Assembly: GCA_017936885.1 (NCBI GenBank)
Contig: JAGBEO010000013.1
Location: forward strand, 310,001-374,000
From: Lachnospiraceae bacterium
Lineage (GTDB): Bacteria; Bacillota; Clostridia; Lachnospirales; Lachnospiraceae
Length of the DNA: 64,000 nt
Direction of reading: 5' to 3'
Position 1 is the first letter of the stretch; every line of letters starts with the position of its first letter. Shown piece after piece: positions 1-8,072 of this stretch. Position numbers and translations under genes: made by a program. A model generated the notes under the pieces. That model made no database searches, was not told the origin of the DNA, and saw only the letters and a list, made by a program, of their open reading frames with translations.

Positions 1-941
1 CCTACTGTCATTACCGCCGTAATAACTTTTCCTGGCACATTAGATTTCGATAAAGCCTGTAAGAACTTTGAAGAACTACTAGACAAAGTATTAGATGCCA
101 CCATCAAACCGTCACTCATCACATACCCAGTAACAACCGCTTTCCCACCATCCTCTATCGTATCTGCAATCGCCTCCCCAGCCTCCTTTTCTCCTTTTAA
201 AACAGCCACTATATTCAAAATTCCTGACATTACTAATGTGAAAGTACCAGCCGATTTAGCCCCAGACATTCCAGCCTCATGACCATCATGCAGTATATTT
301 TTCCCCGTTTCTATAATTTCCCTACCTCGGGTATATACCTCAGCTCGCTTTCCATCCTCTAAAGCCTGTCTTTCACCTTTCTTAGTAAAAAAAACTCCTT
401 TCCTTTCGCGATAGTCTTTATCTTCCACATACTCTTTATTCGTCTTGCTACGTTTGGCATTATTTGTCTTACGTGAAATTACCTTTACATTTTCCTCTGC
501 ATTTCCTATATCTTTCACATCTTCCGTACTTAGCCAAGGATTATTTTTTGTCTCCTCATAAACTTTCTCCAACGGCTTAATATGATCAGTTTCAGCCAGA
601 TGTTTTGTCCAGTCATCACCATATAAAAGTTTCGCCTCCTTCTTTGTCAGTACAAGACGATCACCTGTATACGGGTCAAAAACTTCCGCACCATCCTTAA
701 ATAATTCCATTTTAGCATTTCTTTTTGCTATCCCGCTATCATATAAGTTGCGATTTCCTGTATATGTATCTGGTTTTGCATATTTTTGAATTGCTTTCTG
801 TGTGAAAACTCTTGCTGACTCAGCTGCCGCATATCCAACCGCTATATTGATACCTACATCTTTGTTTTGGTCATCCCCCTCTTCTTTTTTAGGCTCTATA
901 TTCATGACTAAATTATCTTGTGCATTTTTAAATATATCCAT
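1..941 (-). CDS. HNH-nuclease-domain protein with Gly/Ala-rich C-terminal region, partial (runs off left edge)
   Basis: The frame is open from an ATG at 941 through position 1, giving 313 codons; the C-terminus is outside the window. Residues about 85-168 look like an HNH/colicin-type nuclease: a DPYTGDRLVL entry strand (89-98), the ETDHIKPLEK motif with D119-H120, then N147, N151 and the RKTNNAKRSK segment (157-166), in the spacing of known DH...N...N HNH modules. Residues 229-250, 265-285 and 303-313 are hydrophobic and rich in Gly, Ala and Ser, as in membrane-inserting or glycine-zipper segments. No signal peptide is seen. It is the last visible gene of a three-gene minus-strand operon after ykgJ-like and terB-like genes, 25 bp behind the latter. 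A nuclease effector is inferred; a polymorphic toxin or a defence nuclease are both possible. Confidence 0.7.
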   Translation of the reverse strand, partial: MDIFKNAQDNLVMNIEPKKEEGDDQNKDVGINIAVGYAAAESARVFTQKAIQKYAKPDTYTGNRNLYDSGIAKRNAKMELFKDGAEVFDPYTGDRLVLTKKEAKLLYGDDWTKHLAETDHIKPLEKVYEETKNNPWLSTEDVKDIGNAEENVKVISRKTNNAKRSKTNKEYVEDKDYRERKGVFFTKKGERQALEDGKRAEVYTRGREIIETGKNILHDGHEAGMSGAKSAGTFTLVMSGILNIVAVLKGEKEAGEAIADTIEDGGKAVVTGYVMSDGLMVASNTLSSSSSKFLQALSKSNVPGKVITAVMTV

Positions 942-966
942 ATCGCTCCTCTTCTGTACTGCTGGA

Positions 967-1371
967 TTAACCTAAGACCAAAGTATTCATTTTGCCGTAC
1001 ATCTCAACATATTCTTTTAGTAGTATTTCACACTCATCTCTAAACTTATCCTGAAGTCCAAATATTTCTGTCATAGATACAATACTTTTTCTCTCTTTTT
1101 CATCGTAATTGCCATCAATCATCGCCAAGCCAATTATTTCAAAAAGAACAATTTTCTTTTCTCGTCCTTCCCACTCTTCCTTTATTGTTTCAATAATCTC
1201 TGCCATTGATCTTGCTCGAATGACTGGCGGAACGTTTATTTGCATTTCATTACAATAGCTTTCTATCATGAACTGCTCTTTCTCACCAAAATCATTGTCC
1301 AAAAAGGCCATCTCATAAGCTAATTCTAAAAAAACCCTTTTTTGTTCTTCTTTTAACAATGATAAATACAT
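967..1371 (-). CDS. TerB-like acidic helical protein
   Basis: This 134-residue protein is all-helical by composition and contains a twofold repeat of the TerB acidic metal-binding motif: DNDFGEKE at 25-32 and DGNYDEKE at 86-93. That arrangement is typical of TerB/tellurite-resistance-like domains, which bind divalent metal and sit in stress and anti-phage gene neighbourhoods. No tellurite genes are nearby. It lies 2 bp after the YkgJ-like gene and 25 bp before the HNH protein, so the three are almost certainly co-transcribed. A role as metal-sensing adaptor or immunity partner for the HNH protein is inference only. The family assignment is fairly firm; the function is not. Confidence 0.7.
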   Translation of the reverse strand: MYLSLLKEEQKRVFLELAYEMAFLDNDFGEKEQFMIESYCNEMQINVPPVIRARSMAEIIETIKEEWEGREKKIVLFEIIGLAMIDGNYDEKERKSIVSMTEIFGLQDKFRDECEILLKEYVEMYGKMNTLVLG

Positions 1372-1373
1372 GC

Positions 1374-1634
1374 TTACTTCCTCCTAAGTTTTTTTAATTT
1401 TCCACAAGCCTCATAATTTAGTCGATAATACTCTTCTTGGGATAGTTTGTCCCTAAAATACTCTTTATATGTCAGATCTACATTACACAGCAATGGCCTA
1501 CTCTGATAAATAATACACAATCTTGTCTCTTCATCAAAAAATTTGCAGACTCCATCCCCCCTATCCAATTCACTATATATTGATAATCCATTAAGCTGTG
1601 TACAGCACAAACCACATTTATCACATTTAAACAT
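1374..1634 (-). CDS. YkgJ-family cysteine-cluster protein
   Basis: An 86-residue protein opens with a CxxCxxCC cluster (C4, C7, C10, C11) and has further cysteines at 30, 40, 50 and 77, with the SRPLLCN segment (45-51) typical of the YkgJ/UPF0153 family, thought to bind zinc or an Fe-S cluster. It is short for the family but has the full motif set. It is the first gene of the minus-strand operon and is divergent from the Xre gene at 1839. The biochemical role of YkgJ proteins is poorly known. Co-occurrence with TerB and an HNH protein suggests a modification or sensing step rather than housekeeping metabolism, but that is inference. Confidence 0.75.
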   Translation of the reverse strand: MFKCDKCGLCCTQLNGLSIYSELDRGDGVCKFFDEETRLCIIYQSRPLLCNVDLTYKEYFRDKLSQEEYYRLNYEACGKLKKLRRK

Positions 1635-1747: not shown

Positions 1748-1798
1748 TATCCACCTTTAGATAATATCCATTTATGGCTAATATCCATTATAGGACAA
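1748..1798. repeat. three 17-bp imperfect tandem repeats beginning TATCCA
   Basis: TATCCA occurs at 1748, 1765 and 1782, exactly 17 bp apart, and each 17-bp unit ends in a TAA, TAA or CAA triplet. The array ends about 40 bp before the GTG start of the Xre gene, in the intergenic region it shares with the divergent ykgJ-like operon. Phased repeats at such a place are typical operators or small iterons. A role for the neighbouring Xre protein as ligand is inferred. Confidence 0.55.
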
Positions 1799-1838
1799 TA
1801 ATTGTATTATATCAATAAATAAATTTAGGAGAAGCACT

Positions 1839-5590: not shown

Positions 5591-5920
5591 CTACACCATA
5601 TTATCCCGATTCTGCCCATTATAAAGAAACCTTCTAACTTCCATAACCAAATCATTCGGGTTATCATCTATTACCACATAAAAAATAATATAATTATCCA
5701 CATAAATGCGATAATAAGAATATCTACGCTCTTGAACAGAATGATACGGTTCAAAAGATTCTGCCATTGAAAGCCGCTCCATAATAGCCATTTCCACCTT
5801 ATCCAATAAGTCATTTGCTGCTTTTGGATTCTTCAGCTTTTCCGCAATATAGGTTACTTTTTCATCAAGATCCTCATAAAAAAGCGGTAGATAACTGAGT
5901 CTGTACTTTTTACTGAACAT
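5591..5920 (-). CDS. RelE/ParE-family toxin
   Basis: The 109-residue product begins YRLSYLPLFYEDLDEKVTYI, the usual first strand and helix of RelE/ParE toxins, continues with an ANDLLDKVEMAI helix, and has the YRIYVDNYIIFYVVID beta strands and the VMEVRRFLYNG end of the family. It acts either as ribosome-dependent mRNA interferase (RelE branch) or gyrase poison (ParE branch); the sequence does not decide by eye. Its start overlaps the antitoxin stop by 11 bp, so translation is coupled. Confidence 0.85.
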   Translation of the reverse strand: MFSKKYRLSYLPLFYEDLDEKVTYIAEKLKNPKAANDLLDKVEMAIMERLSMAESFEPYHSVQERRYSYYRIYVDNYIIFYVVIDDNPNDLVMEVRRFLYNGQNRDNMV

Positions 5921-6170
5921 TTATTTTCCTCCGTAGTCCTCCAAAAACTTCCTCATGGCTCATCCGTGTATCTTTTTCCGCCGCAAACCTATCTGCTTTA
6001 TCTAATGCAGCTTCAACGCCATCCGTCAACTTTGAATACTCTTCAAGACTAAGCACCACCATCGCTCCATATCCATTTTTTGTTAAATATACCGGCTCAC
6101 CCGCATTTACAATTTTCTCAATATCAGGAAACTTATTTCTTAAATCTGAAACAGGTCTAATCTGTAACAT
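5910..6170 (-). CDS. Phd/YefM-family antitoxin
   Basis: This 86-residue protein has the classic Phd/YefM N-terminal DNA-binding fold: RPVSDLRNKFPDIEK, then AGEPVYLTKNGYGAMVVLSL and EEYSKL. The charged C-terminal tail is the usual toxin-binding part. It is the first gene of a two-gene operon with the RelE/ParE-type toxin and should autorepress through sites in the 6171-6300 region. Both genes look intact, unlike the second toxin-antitoxin pair at 8369-8811. Confidence 0.88.
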   Translation of the reverse strand: MLQIRPVSDLRNKFPDIEKIVNAGEPVYLTKNGYGAMVVLSLEEYSKLTDGVEAALDKADRFAAEKDTRMSHEEVFGGLRRKINVQ

Positions 6171-6353: not shown

Positions 6354-8072
6354 CTATGAAAAATCAAAATCAAATCTTTTTGTCAAATTACTAATTCTCG
6401 TTTGAACCTTATTAAATATAGCATTATTTTTAGTAAGCAAAGATGCGTTATTATCATCCTCTGATATAATAATTTCTCGAACAATAAAAATTGCATCCGT
6501 AATTATTTCCTTATCATTTATATCTTTTAAGTTCAATTTTTCATACTGCCGCTTAATGTTTGCAAACGCATTTAACAAGATAATATCTCCAGTATTCATA
6601 AAACGAAACTCTTCAATATGTTCAAGCAACCATGTCTGCGGAACTTCTATGTATTTAGAAAATTCGTCTTTACTACTATTCCGTCGAGTTTTTCTGTACA
6701 TAGTTAACACTTCAGATATAGAGTGATATATAGTATAAGCCTCAATAACTTTCTCTGCCGTAACCCCCGACAATAATTCTTCTATTTTATTTTTATCAAA
6801 TAATGCATTTTTCCCACGTTTGGCCAAACTTGCATTTTTGTTCACCCAATATCCAACATAATATTGAATAGTATCTTCTAACTGCATTGTTGTTTTCTCT
6901 TTAATTCCAATCCCCCGTTCTACCATATAGTCGAATTCATTAATCTGTCTCTCAAGAAAATAACCATGTCGCAATAATTTTTGTTGCAGATCTCTAACAA
7001 TTGGATGATTTGCAATAAAATAACTATCCCGAATAGGTGTCTGCGAATTTAAATATTCAGTTATTTTCATCCTTTCACTATAATCTGCAATTGAAATAAT
7101 TCTAACAAGAACATTTACAGAATCATTTAGTTTTCCCTTTTGCATTGCATTATAAAGAACATTTACTGTTTGACACCCATTAACAATAGATGCGCCTTGC
7201 AAAACTATCTCACTTGATGCCGGACTGTTTTCTGCTTTATCACAAATAAAAACAATCCCATTATTGTAAAAATAGAACATATCAGCTTGATCCGTTGATG
7301 TTGCTGTTCTATTAATGCCCGCATTAACATTTGAGCCATATTCATAAAGACGGATATTCTCATCGAAAATGGTTGCAATATGATTGGAGATAGATGTTAC
7401 AAGTTCTTTTCCATTTACAAATCCAACTAATGAATCTATTTGTCGCCCTTGTACATTATAAGCTGATTGCATTTGTTTATATTTTAAAGTTATCGAAATA
7501 TTGTTTTTTCGATTCAATTTCTCATAAATATTGGAAATAGCATCTCTTTCATGATAGATAATCTCTAAGTTGCTCCCTGTGTCACGCCTGAAACCATCTG
7601 CATTACTTTCCACAATATCTCTATTTGCTATAACTCCCTTATTATAACTCACAAAACATATTCTAAAGTTCGTAATAGTAACATCCTTCAACTGACGCTT
7701 AAATTCTCTAAATTTTTCATTTCTCCCCATATATTGTTTATCATTTGAAATCAGTGTCATAAAACCATTCCATGTTTTTAAGATATCTCCCTGATCTATT
7801 TCACTATTAATATTTTCCTTTTTAGCTGGTAATTTATATTGCATAATTGTCAAAGCACTGTTATCTTCATCTATAATAATTGAATCAATTCCAAGATCTC
7901 CATCGCCATCGATTATTGCTTCAGCAATATCTTGATTACTTAATCTATAATAACTTTCTAAATACCAATGGGCAAATGCAAGAGAATCTGTTTTATATTC
8001 ATTTTCTTCTTTTATTGATTTCAAATTTTCTAGTATTTTGTTATAATATGATTCGTATTTTGTAATTGCCAT
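6354..8072 (-). CDS. AIPR-family abortive-infection protein with PD-(D/E)XK-like N-terminus
   Basis: The 572-residue protein matches the AIPR (abortive infection phage resistance) family: YFYNNGIVFICD (267-278), the GASIVNGCQTVNVLYNAM block (293-310), then MKITEYLNSQTPIRDSYFIA and NHPIVRDLQQKLL. The N-terminus has a Mrr/PD-(D/E)XK-like pattern: GDGDLGIDSIIID (56-68, with D63) and, after a short hairpin, IMQYK (76-80) giving QxK. AIPR proteins are linked to phage defence and often lie near restriction systems; none is visible here. The gene is monocistronic with its own terminator, AT-rich like its neighbours, and appears intact. DNA cleavage activity is inferred from the motif. Confidence 0.85.
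   Translation of the reverse strand: MAITKYESYYNKILENLKSIKEENEYKTDSLAFAHWYLESYYRLSNQDIAEAIIDGDGDLGIDSIIIDEDNSALTIMQYKLPAKKENINSEIDQGDILKTWNGFMTLISNDKQYMGRNEKFREFKRQLKDVTITNFRICFVSYNKGVIANRDIVESNADGFRRDTGSNLEIIYHERDAISNIYEKLNRKNNISITLKYKQMQSAYNVQGRQIDSLVGFVNGKELVTSISNHIATIFDENIRLYEYGSNVNAGINRTATSTDQADMFYFYNNGIVFICDKAENSPASSEIVLQGASIVNGCQTVNVLYNAMQKGKLNDSVNVLVRIISIADYSERMKITEYLNSQTPIRDSYFIANHPIVRDLQQKLLRHGYFLERQINEFDYMVERGIGIKEKTTMQLEDTIQYYVGYWVNKNASLAKRGKNALFDKNKIEELLSGVTAEKVIEAYTIYHSISEVLTMYRKTRRNSSKDEFSKYIEVPQTWLLEHIEEFRFMNTGDIILLNAFANIKRQYEKLNLKDINDKEIITDAIFIVREIIISEDDNNASLLTKNNAIFNKVQTRISNLTKRFDFDFS

Follow-up and report, generated by a model that had tools for sequence, protein, structure and literature searches.

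The window, by which we denote the whole 64,000-nucleotide stretch of Lachnospiraceae DNA that was analysed, begins with three genes that all lie on the minus strand within positions 1-1634 and are separated by intergenic gaps of exactly 2 and 25 bp, in agreement with the initial annotation, which had described three adjacent genes at this spacing with an HNH gene running off the left edge. The first gene of the operon, ykgJ (1374..1634, minus strand), encodes an 86-aa YkgJ-family CxxCxxCC protein (Pfam PF03692, E 1.2e-7; 32.7 bits against a cut-off of 23) that carries Cys 4, 7, 10 and 11 plus four further cysteines. All 8 Cys are among the 19 positions that are invariant in an alignment of seven sequences, the window's counted, which bears out the cluster with four additional cysteines noticed at first. 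The following gene (967..1371, minus strand) encodes a 134-aa TerB-like protein (Pfam PF05099, E 2.9e-7; 31.2 bits against a cut-off of 24.4) that is acidic, as had been claimed, with 28 D+E versus 17 K+R, and that is the single Pfam TerB match in the 3.57 Mb (36 contigs) of the window's genome. Upstream of ykgJ, a promoter-like site (1787..1815, minus strand) reads TTGATA-17-TATAAT with 11/12 consensus matches; it is a consensus match only, four such sites being found in the region versus 4.1 expected from shuffles.

The third gene (1..941, minus strand; open frame 3..941) is represented within the window by the N-terminal 313 of 484 residues of an effector that is matched by the PADLOC model PDC-M09B. 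Its missing left part (309487-310000) could be read from the genome, in which the window corresponds to G000:C16:310001-374000; the gene in full spans G000:C16:309487-310941 and specifies a 484-aa protein. The Gly/Ala-rich hydrophobic parts that had been attributed to this protein are present, but they reach no more than borderline hydropathy, with two 19-aa windows at 1.7-1.8. At 12 bp past the HNH gene, and outside the window, lies a gene for a 465-aa Gly-zipper protein, here termed GlyZ (G000:C16:308077-309474), with a Gly/Ala-rich hydrophobic middle, two strong hydrophobic C-terminal segments (Kyte-Doolittle 2.4 and 3.3) and a weak C-terminal DUF4190 match that is below the Pfam cut-off. 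GlyZ is followed by a gene for a WYL-domain regulator (G000:C16:307006-308019). The operon is thus one of four genes (YkgJ, TerB, HNH and GlyZ), and the earlier count of three had stopped at the window edge.

The HNH head comprises about residues 73-172 (426..725, minus strand; D119/H120 codons at 582-587). Pfam HNH models do not match the window HNH protein up to E 0.1, whereas D89, D119, H120, N147, N151 and N160 (window numbering) are identical throughout two alignments of nine sequences each, which have three sequences in common and together hold 15 distinct sequences, the window's included. The HNH-domain call of the initial annotation is therefore sustained by the invariant DH...N...N pattern, though not by Pfam, and the protein is likely a DNA-cutting enzyme. 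A PDB sequence search with the HNH effector returned no match. Separately, a comparison of alignments A6 and A10 was discarded, as one sequence is common to both and the comparison proves nothing.

YkgJ relatives are found in 5/61 genomes, the window's own counted. Within the same genus, locus L008 contains genes for TerB, effector, YkgJ, GlyZ and WYL, locus L009 for effector, TerB, GlyZ and YkgJ (the window GlyZ aligns to that of L009 at 7e-35), and locus L010 has YkgJ next to a short GlyZ piece, plus WYL. Near this short piece (L010:251-9864), the same WYL regulator and YkgJ enclose what reads as a kinase / vWA / PP2C / HerA-like ATPase set, perhaps another cargo swap. When genome contigs were scanned with an alignment of GlyZ, 171 relatives were confirmed; the best 80 of these 171 loci, which derive from Lachnospiraceae, Oscillospiraceae, Bifidobacterium, Treponema and others and include some near copies, were analysed. 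TerB is present in 77/80 and an effector with a common C-terminal region in 76/80, contig ends accounting for part of the misses (e.g. L052, L062), and YkgJ is present in 10/80. Subtraction of the four seed loci (L037, L046, L099, L115) leaves TerB in 73/76 and the effector family in 72/76. The gene order in these best 80 of 171 loci is effector-TerB-GlyZ(-YkgJ) with gaps mostly <20 bp, and no immunity-type gene recurs: 22 of the 80 operons contain no gene besides those for the effector, TerB, GlyZ and sometimes YkgJ. As TerB and the effector family accompany GlyZ at 77 and 76 of the 80 loci, the grouping is not due to chance. YkgJ is distributed by effector class, at 10/19 loci with an REase-like effector versus 0/53 others (72 of the 80 loci usable; kinship uncorrected); L008, in which YkgJ accompanies BnzB, is an exception outside this table.

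The effectors themselves differ in their heads. Bunzi, which comprises BnzA and BnzB, is an anti-phage system reportedly described by Millman et al. (2022). Family scans covered 70 of 78 effector ORFs and that of the window, 71 in all (alignment A5), after omission of eight fragmentary or partial ORFs (L057, L060 twice, L065, L081, L088, L090 and L101). Among these 71, BnzB is matched by 43 and PDC-M09B by 10 (9 for a second model), and Pfam detects an M48 peptidase in 25 and a NUDIX domain in 2; by reading, other effectors have an REase-like head (GFxAE ... NDPxxD ... SGxQMKF) or are headless (278-280 aa). The M48 metallopeptidase is fused to the BnzB core in 25/71 effectors (e.g. L047:3811-6219), and a NUDIX domain is fused to it in L055 by reading and in 2/71 by scan. 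An enzyme head that varies while the rest stays constant, together with the Gly-rich hydrophobic regions, would also be in keeping with an exported polymorphic toxin directed against other bacteria. We regard this as highly improbable, for the toxin head is N-terminal, no immunity-type gene recurs beside the effector at the best 80 of 171 GlyZ loci, and no export gene recurs in the flanking families counted there.

When mapped onto an 88-row GlyZ tree, the effector classes, which were labelled by motif and length rules, need 17 changes, where the least possible is 7 and the shuffled mean is 49, and the starred branches force at least 3 changes for HNH and at least 5 for REase-like effectors. 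The tree has long branches (4.7 changes per column for the window GlyZ), for which reason the placement of the window GlyZ is unsure. The clearest effector swap is that between L008 and L155, which belong to the window's genus and are sisters on the GlyZ tree (support 99). Their shared proteins are 62% (YkgJ), 56% (GlyZ), 50% (WYL) and 38% (TerB) identical, whereas the effector is BnzB in L008 (PADLOC E 1.1e-130) and HNH in L155, with likeness only in the last 94 residues. This tail aligns ungapped at 29.8% identity, with a score of 127 versus 50 for the best of 50 shuffles. BnzB likewise gave no whole-length match to REase-like or HNH effectors, the likeness being confined to the tail. L155 additionally encodes YkgJ and GlyZ as a single 432-aa protein, in which the YkgJ model matches residues 1-83 (2.4e-32) and PDC-M09A matches residues 119-388 (3.2e-33). 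This fusion argues that YkgJ and GlyZ may act together; it is a single case, which a stop codon lost by sequencing error could explain.

HNH-type effectors are seen in L027, L029, L091, L153, L154, L155, L156 and L157, and on plasmids in L179, L180, L182, L183 and L184; the assignment in L182-L184 follows from the aligned residues, as the HNH profile model scored the first two of these at E 0.0011 and 0.011 and missed the third, and a 195-aa HNH fragment (L172) was left out of the counts. GlyZ is adjacent to the HNH effector or in the same short operon at 10/10 readable loci (L002, L027, L153, L155, L156, L179, L180, L182, L183, L184). L091 has a weak GlyZ-like neighbour, the neighbour in L154 is cut by the contig end and was not called GlyZ by the GlyZ model, and the L029 and L157 loci stop at the contig edge. 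The L091 locus (L091:2378-8304, [Clostridium] aminophilum) is a double-armed operon, with an HNH effector and then an REase-like effector plus single copies of TerB, full-length GlyZ and YkgJ; its GlyZ-like gene L091:2378-3157 was part of the model that later scored it, and that score is circular. Among the HNH loci that were not fetched by YkgJ, a cysteine-cluster gene is present in 5/5 readable cases. It is YkgJ in L155 (fused to GlyZ), L156 and L091, and a ferredoxin-like (4Fe-4S-like) gene takes the place of YkgJ in L027 and L153, directly after GlyZ in both (L027:8034-9068, Fer4_15 at 22.1 bits, marginally short of the 22.4 cut-off; L153:3398-4441, assigned by reading).

A metal-stress and DNA-processing role has been proposed for ter-linked genes, and the presence of TerB and CxxCxxCC domains, as well as the 4Fe-4S-like gene that stands in for YkgJ at two loci, might accordingly be read as a metal/redox stress system in which TerB and YkgJ would deal with metal stress, leaving DNA processing to the HNH protein. 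We consider this distinctly improbable: terC, terD, terE and terZ are absent beside terB from that part of the neighbours that was scanned with Pfam, and TerB stands alone in the genome; BnzB, M48 and NUDIX heads are accommodated in the effector slot as well; and the distribution is patchy, the effector family being matched in 10/77 same-genus genomes, with the HNH head in those of the window and of L155.

The surroundings of the window operon are mobile-looking. One flank holds Rad52, YqaJ, DUF932 and DUF5688 genes, and the other, at 4-5 kb from the operon, holds ParE/Phd and AIPR/AbiU genes, namely a ParE-type toxin with a Phd/YefM-type antitoxin (5591-6170, minus strand; Pfam) and, ~5 kb away, an AIPR-family protein that is likely a second defence gene (6354-8072, minus strand; Pfam 1.4e-32, PADLOC AbiU 3.9e-41). 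By reading, L008 has the same kinds of backbone genes as the window region with BnzB as cargo. To the left of the window, L002 contains a short ORF with a GlyZ-like piece (L002:10631-10936, E 2e-7) and a 137-aa ORF (L002:8712-9125) which, by reading, resembles the C-terminus of the LeoA-like GTPases at L008:12907-14625 (LeoA match 6.7e-10) and L091:35-1129; the two are perhaps remnants of earlier cargo at the site.

Relatives are also carried on plasmids. With the L155 fusion protein as query, 40 plasmid records were matched, and in the six that were opened YkgJ and GlyZ lie in one operon (6/6), with an HNH-type effector in 5/6 and, in the sixth (Acinetobacter), a 143-aa tail-only protein instead. 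The occurrence of YkgJ at these loci is by construction, as the query contained YkgJ; that of the HNH effector is not. A three-gene stretch from a Klebsiella plasmid is matched at the DNA level by 37 plasmid records, over at least 80% of its length in 28 of these, and is present at 98.5% identity in 3/5426 complete E. coli genomes, where it is chromosomal; one E. coli operon spans L185:14042-17985. At the two E. coli loci that were opened, a methyltransferase/helicase plus IS region lies to one side of the operon and, at tRNA-Sec, an integrase to the other, with a regulator upstream that matches the WYL model at 1e-6. The mobile island suspected in the initial annotation is hence consistent with both the window region and the E. 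coli setting. The GlyZ-HNH-YkgJ operon opens with a gene that some plasmid and E. coli records label 'cobalamin adenosyltransferase' or 'chemotaxis protein', names that are probably erroneous for GlyZ. No separate TerB gene is seen in the six plasmid operons or the two E. coli HNH forms opened, and for this reason TerB is placed outside the minimal core. The single conserved gene set that had been envisaged therefore holds in so far as a chance association clearly fails, but its constant partner is GlyZ, outside the window, rather than TerB.

The GlyZ of L009 had no match among plasmids, and the C-terminus of the window effector matched one plasmid record (Azospirillum), an REase-like effector with GlyZ and WYL adjoining. 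Scans of viral contigs with a single GlyZ, GlyZ alignment A4, HNH alignment A6 and the window HNH protein yielded no confirmed relative, and phage records contained no DNA match to the operon; BnzB is found in 2 phage records. For GlyZ, the PDB sequence search returned two TolQ chains at E 0.18-0.19, which are not credible.

Alternatively, the module might guard the mobile element that carries it (ICE, plasmid or island), either by keeping competitors out or by killing cells from which the element has been lost, rather than protect the host from phage. The Rad52, YqaJ and DUF932 genes that adjoin the window operon, the relatives on conjugative plasmids and beside an integrase, and the similar backbone of L008 with another effector in the slot would all suit such a role. 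Known defence systems occupy such elements too, however, so location fails to separate own-element from host protection, and no labile antitoxin-like partner recurs in the families counted around the best 80 of 171 GlyZ loci. We judge protection of the element itself to be unlikely.

On balance we lean towards the operon being an intracellular, membrane-associated suicide-nuclease module of the abortive-infection type, of the anti-phage or anti-mobile-element kind. The defence-type reading fits the Bunzi effector in a relative's slot, the AIPR/AbiU and toxin-antitoxin genes nearby, and the E. coli island setting. The sequences themselves show the gene order and its conservation, the modular exchange of effectors, the invariant HNH residues and the surroundings of mobile and defence type. 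We infer that GlyZ, which in the window operon has two additional hydrophobic segments at its C-terminus, would insert into the membrane as a scaffold, and that YkgJ (a metal or Fe-S cysteine cluster, fused to GlyZ in one relative) and the acidic TerB may serve as sensing or adaptor parts. The HNH effector would dock via its conserved C-terminal half and tail and be kept inactive, until infection, or a membrane, metal or redox change, frees the HNH head, which would then cut DNA and could in this way confer phage protection. Expression is probably controlled by the adjoining WYL regulator, and a WYL family has been linked to phage-defence islands (PMC9122601). A nuclease held by scaffold and sensor and released on infection would explain the variable head and constant tail, the lack of a recurrent immunity gene, the WYL regulator, the mobile placement and the exchange with BnzB.

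Among systems with TerB, the domain is listed for Bunzi and Shango in Table 1 of PMC10952713, and a review (PMC12926258) gives the mechanism of Bunzi as 'Unknown' and names Dionysus (van den Berg et al. 2025) as a further TerB system. Shango and Dionysus have a TerB domain in common with the window operon. The resemblance to Bunzi is broader, as the window has a TerB domain, BnzB occupies the corresponding operon slot in L008, and BnzB cores with the common tail occur in GlyZ-TerB operons; the window differs in its separate TerB and Gly-zipper genes, its HNH head and the added YkgJ. BnzB is absent from the window proteins by PADLOC, the effector matching PDC-M09B instead, and no window protein, TerB included, has a PADLOC match to BnzA. 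The window system is not Bunzi, since neither component is found in it. BnzA was likewise not detected in the window's genome at E 1e-8, where control genomes gave no match either, nor in 299 genomes of the phylum, again with no control matching. On two plasmids, BnzA is one protein of 549-562 aa. PDC-M09A scores 0.0014 on one BnzA, and Pfam TerB and the GlyZ and TerB profile models gave no hit to the two BnzA scanned; that BnzA is a fusion of TerB and GlyZ is an attractive idea but is not claimed, the profile comparison being weak (probability 1.9% and 30%).

Closer counterparts are found among the PDC systems, PDC standing for 'phage defence candidate' (PMC11514479). For PDC-M09 (A, GlyZ-like; B, effector), the B model matches the window effector (1.6e-13, residues 203-441) and the A model matches the GlyZ of relatives (1e-33 and 1e-31), whereas the window GlyZ is without a PDC-M09A match up to E 0.1 and the B match misses the HNH head. 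The window YkgJ matches no PADLOC model. PDC-M40, whose B component is an effector with an HNH-type head, is represented by PDC-M40B matches in L155 (3.8e-35), L179 (6.6e-37), L180 (5e-39), L182 (7.3e-29) and L184 (6.8e-35), in contrast to the window effector, which matches PDC-M40B only weakly (1.5e-4, residues 37-214). To judge from these profile scores, the window system appears to fall between PDC-M09 and PDC-M40. A literature search, with subscription papers and supplementary files outside its reach, found no paper that joins TerB, YkgJ and HNH, none that names PDC-M09, no phage experiment for any HNH/GlyZ member and, for Bunzi and phage, no mechanism paper by title. We know of no test of PDC-M09. 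The combination that the initial annotation could not name is thus absent from the papers found as a trio, but its parts match the named candidates PDC-M09 and PDC-M40.

The operon is probably a modular relative of the Bunzi anti-phage system and of PDC-M09/PDC-M40, not Bunzi itself. As a more speculative extension, which we put forward tentatively and hold to be rather doubtful, Bunzi, PDC-M09, PDC-M40 and the YkgJ-HNH plasmid operons could form one superfamily, defined by a Gly-zipper scaffold and an effector with a common docking tail and a swapped head (HNH, REase-like, M48 protease plus BnzB, or NUDIX plus BnzB), in the nuclease branch of which YkgJ or the ferredoxin-like protein would be an iron/redox trigger that frees a membrane-held nuclease during infection. 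The one YkgJ-GlyZ fusion, together with the two loci that have a ferredoxin-like gene in the same slot, raises the possibility that metal or redox state gates some immune nucleases, and the HNH, M48 and NUDIX active sites offer readable handles on what the scaffold controls. The E. coli copy, being nearly identical to the Klebsiella plasmid form, makes the system testable in a standard laboratory host. Bunzi, an anti-phage system already known, is tied to two candidate families by the operon scaffold and the effector tail that they have in common.
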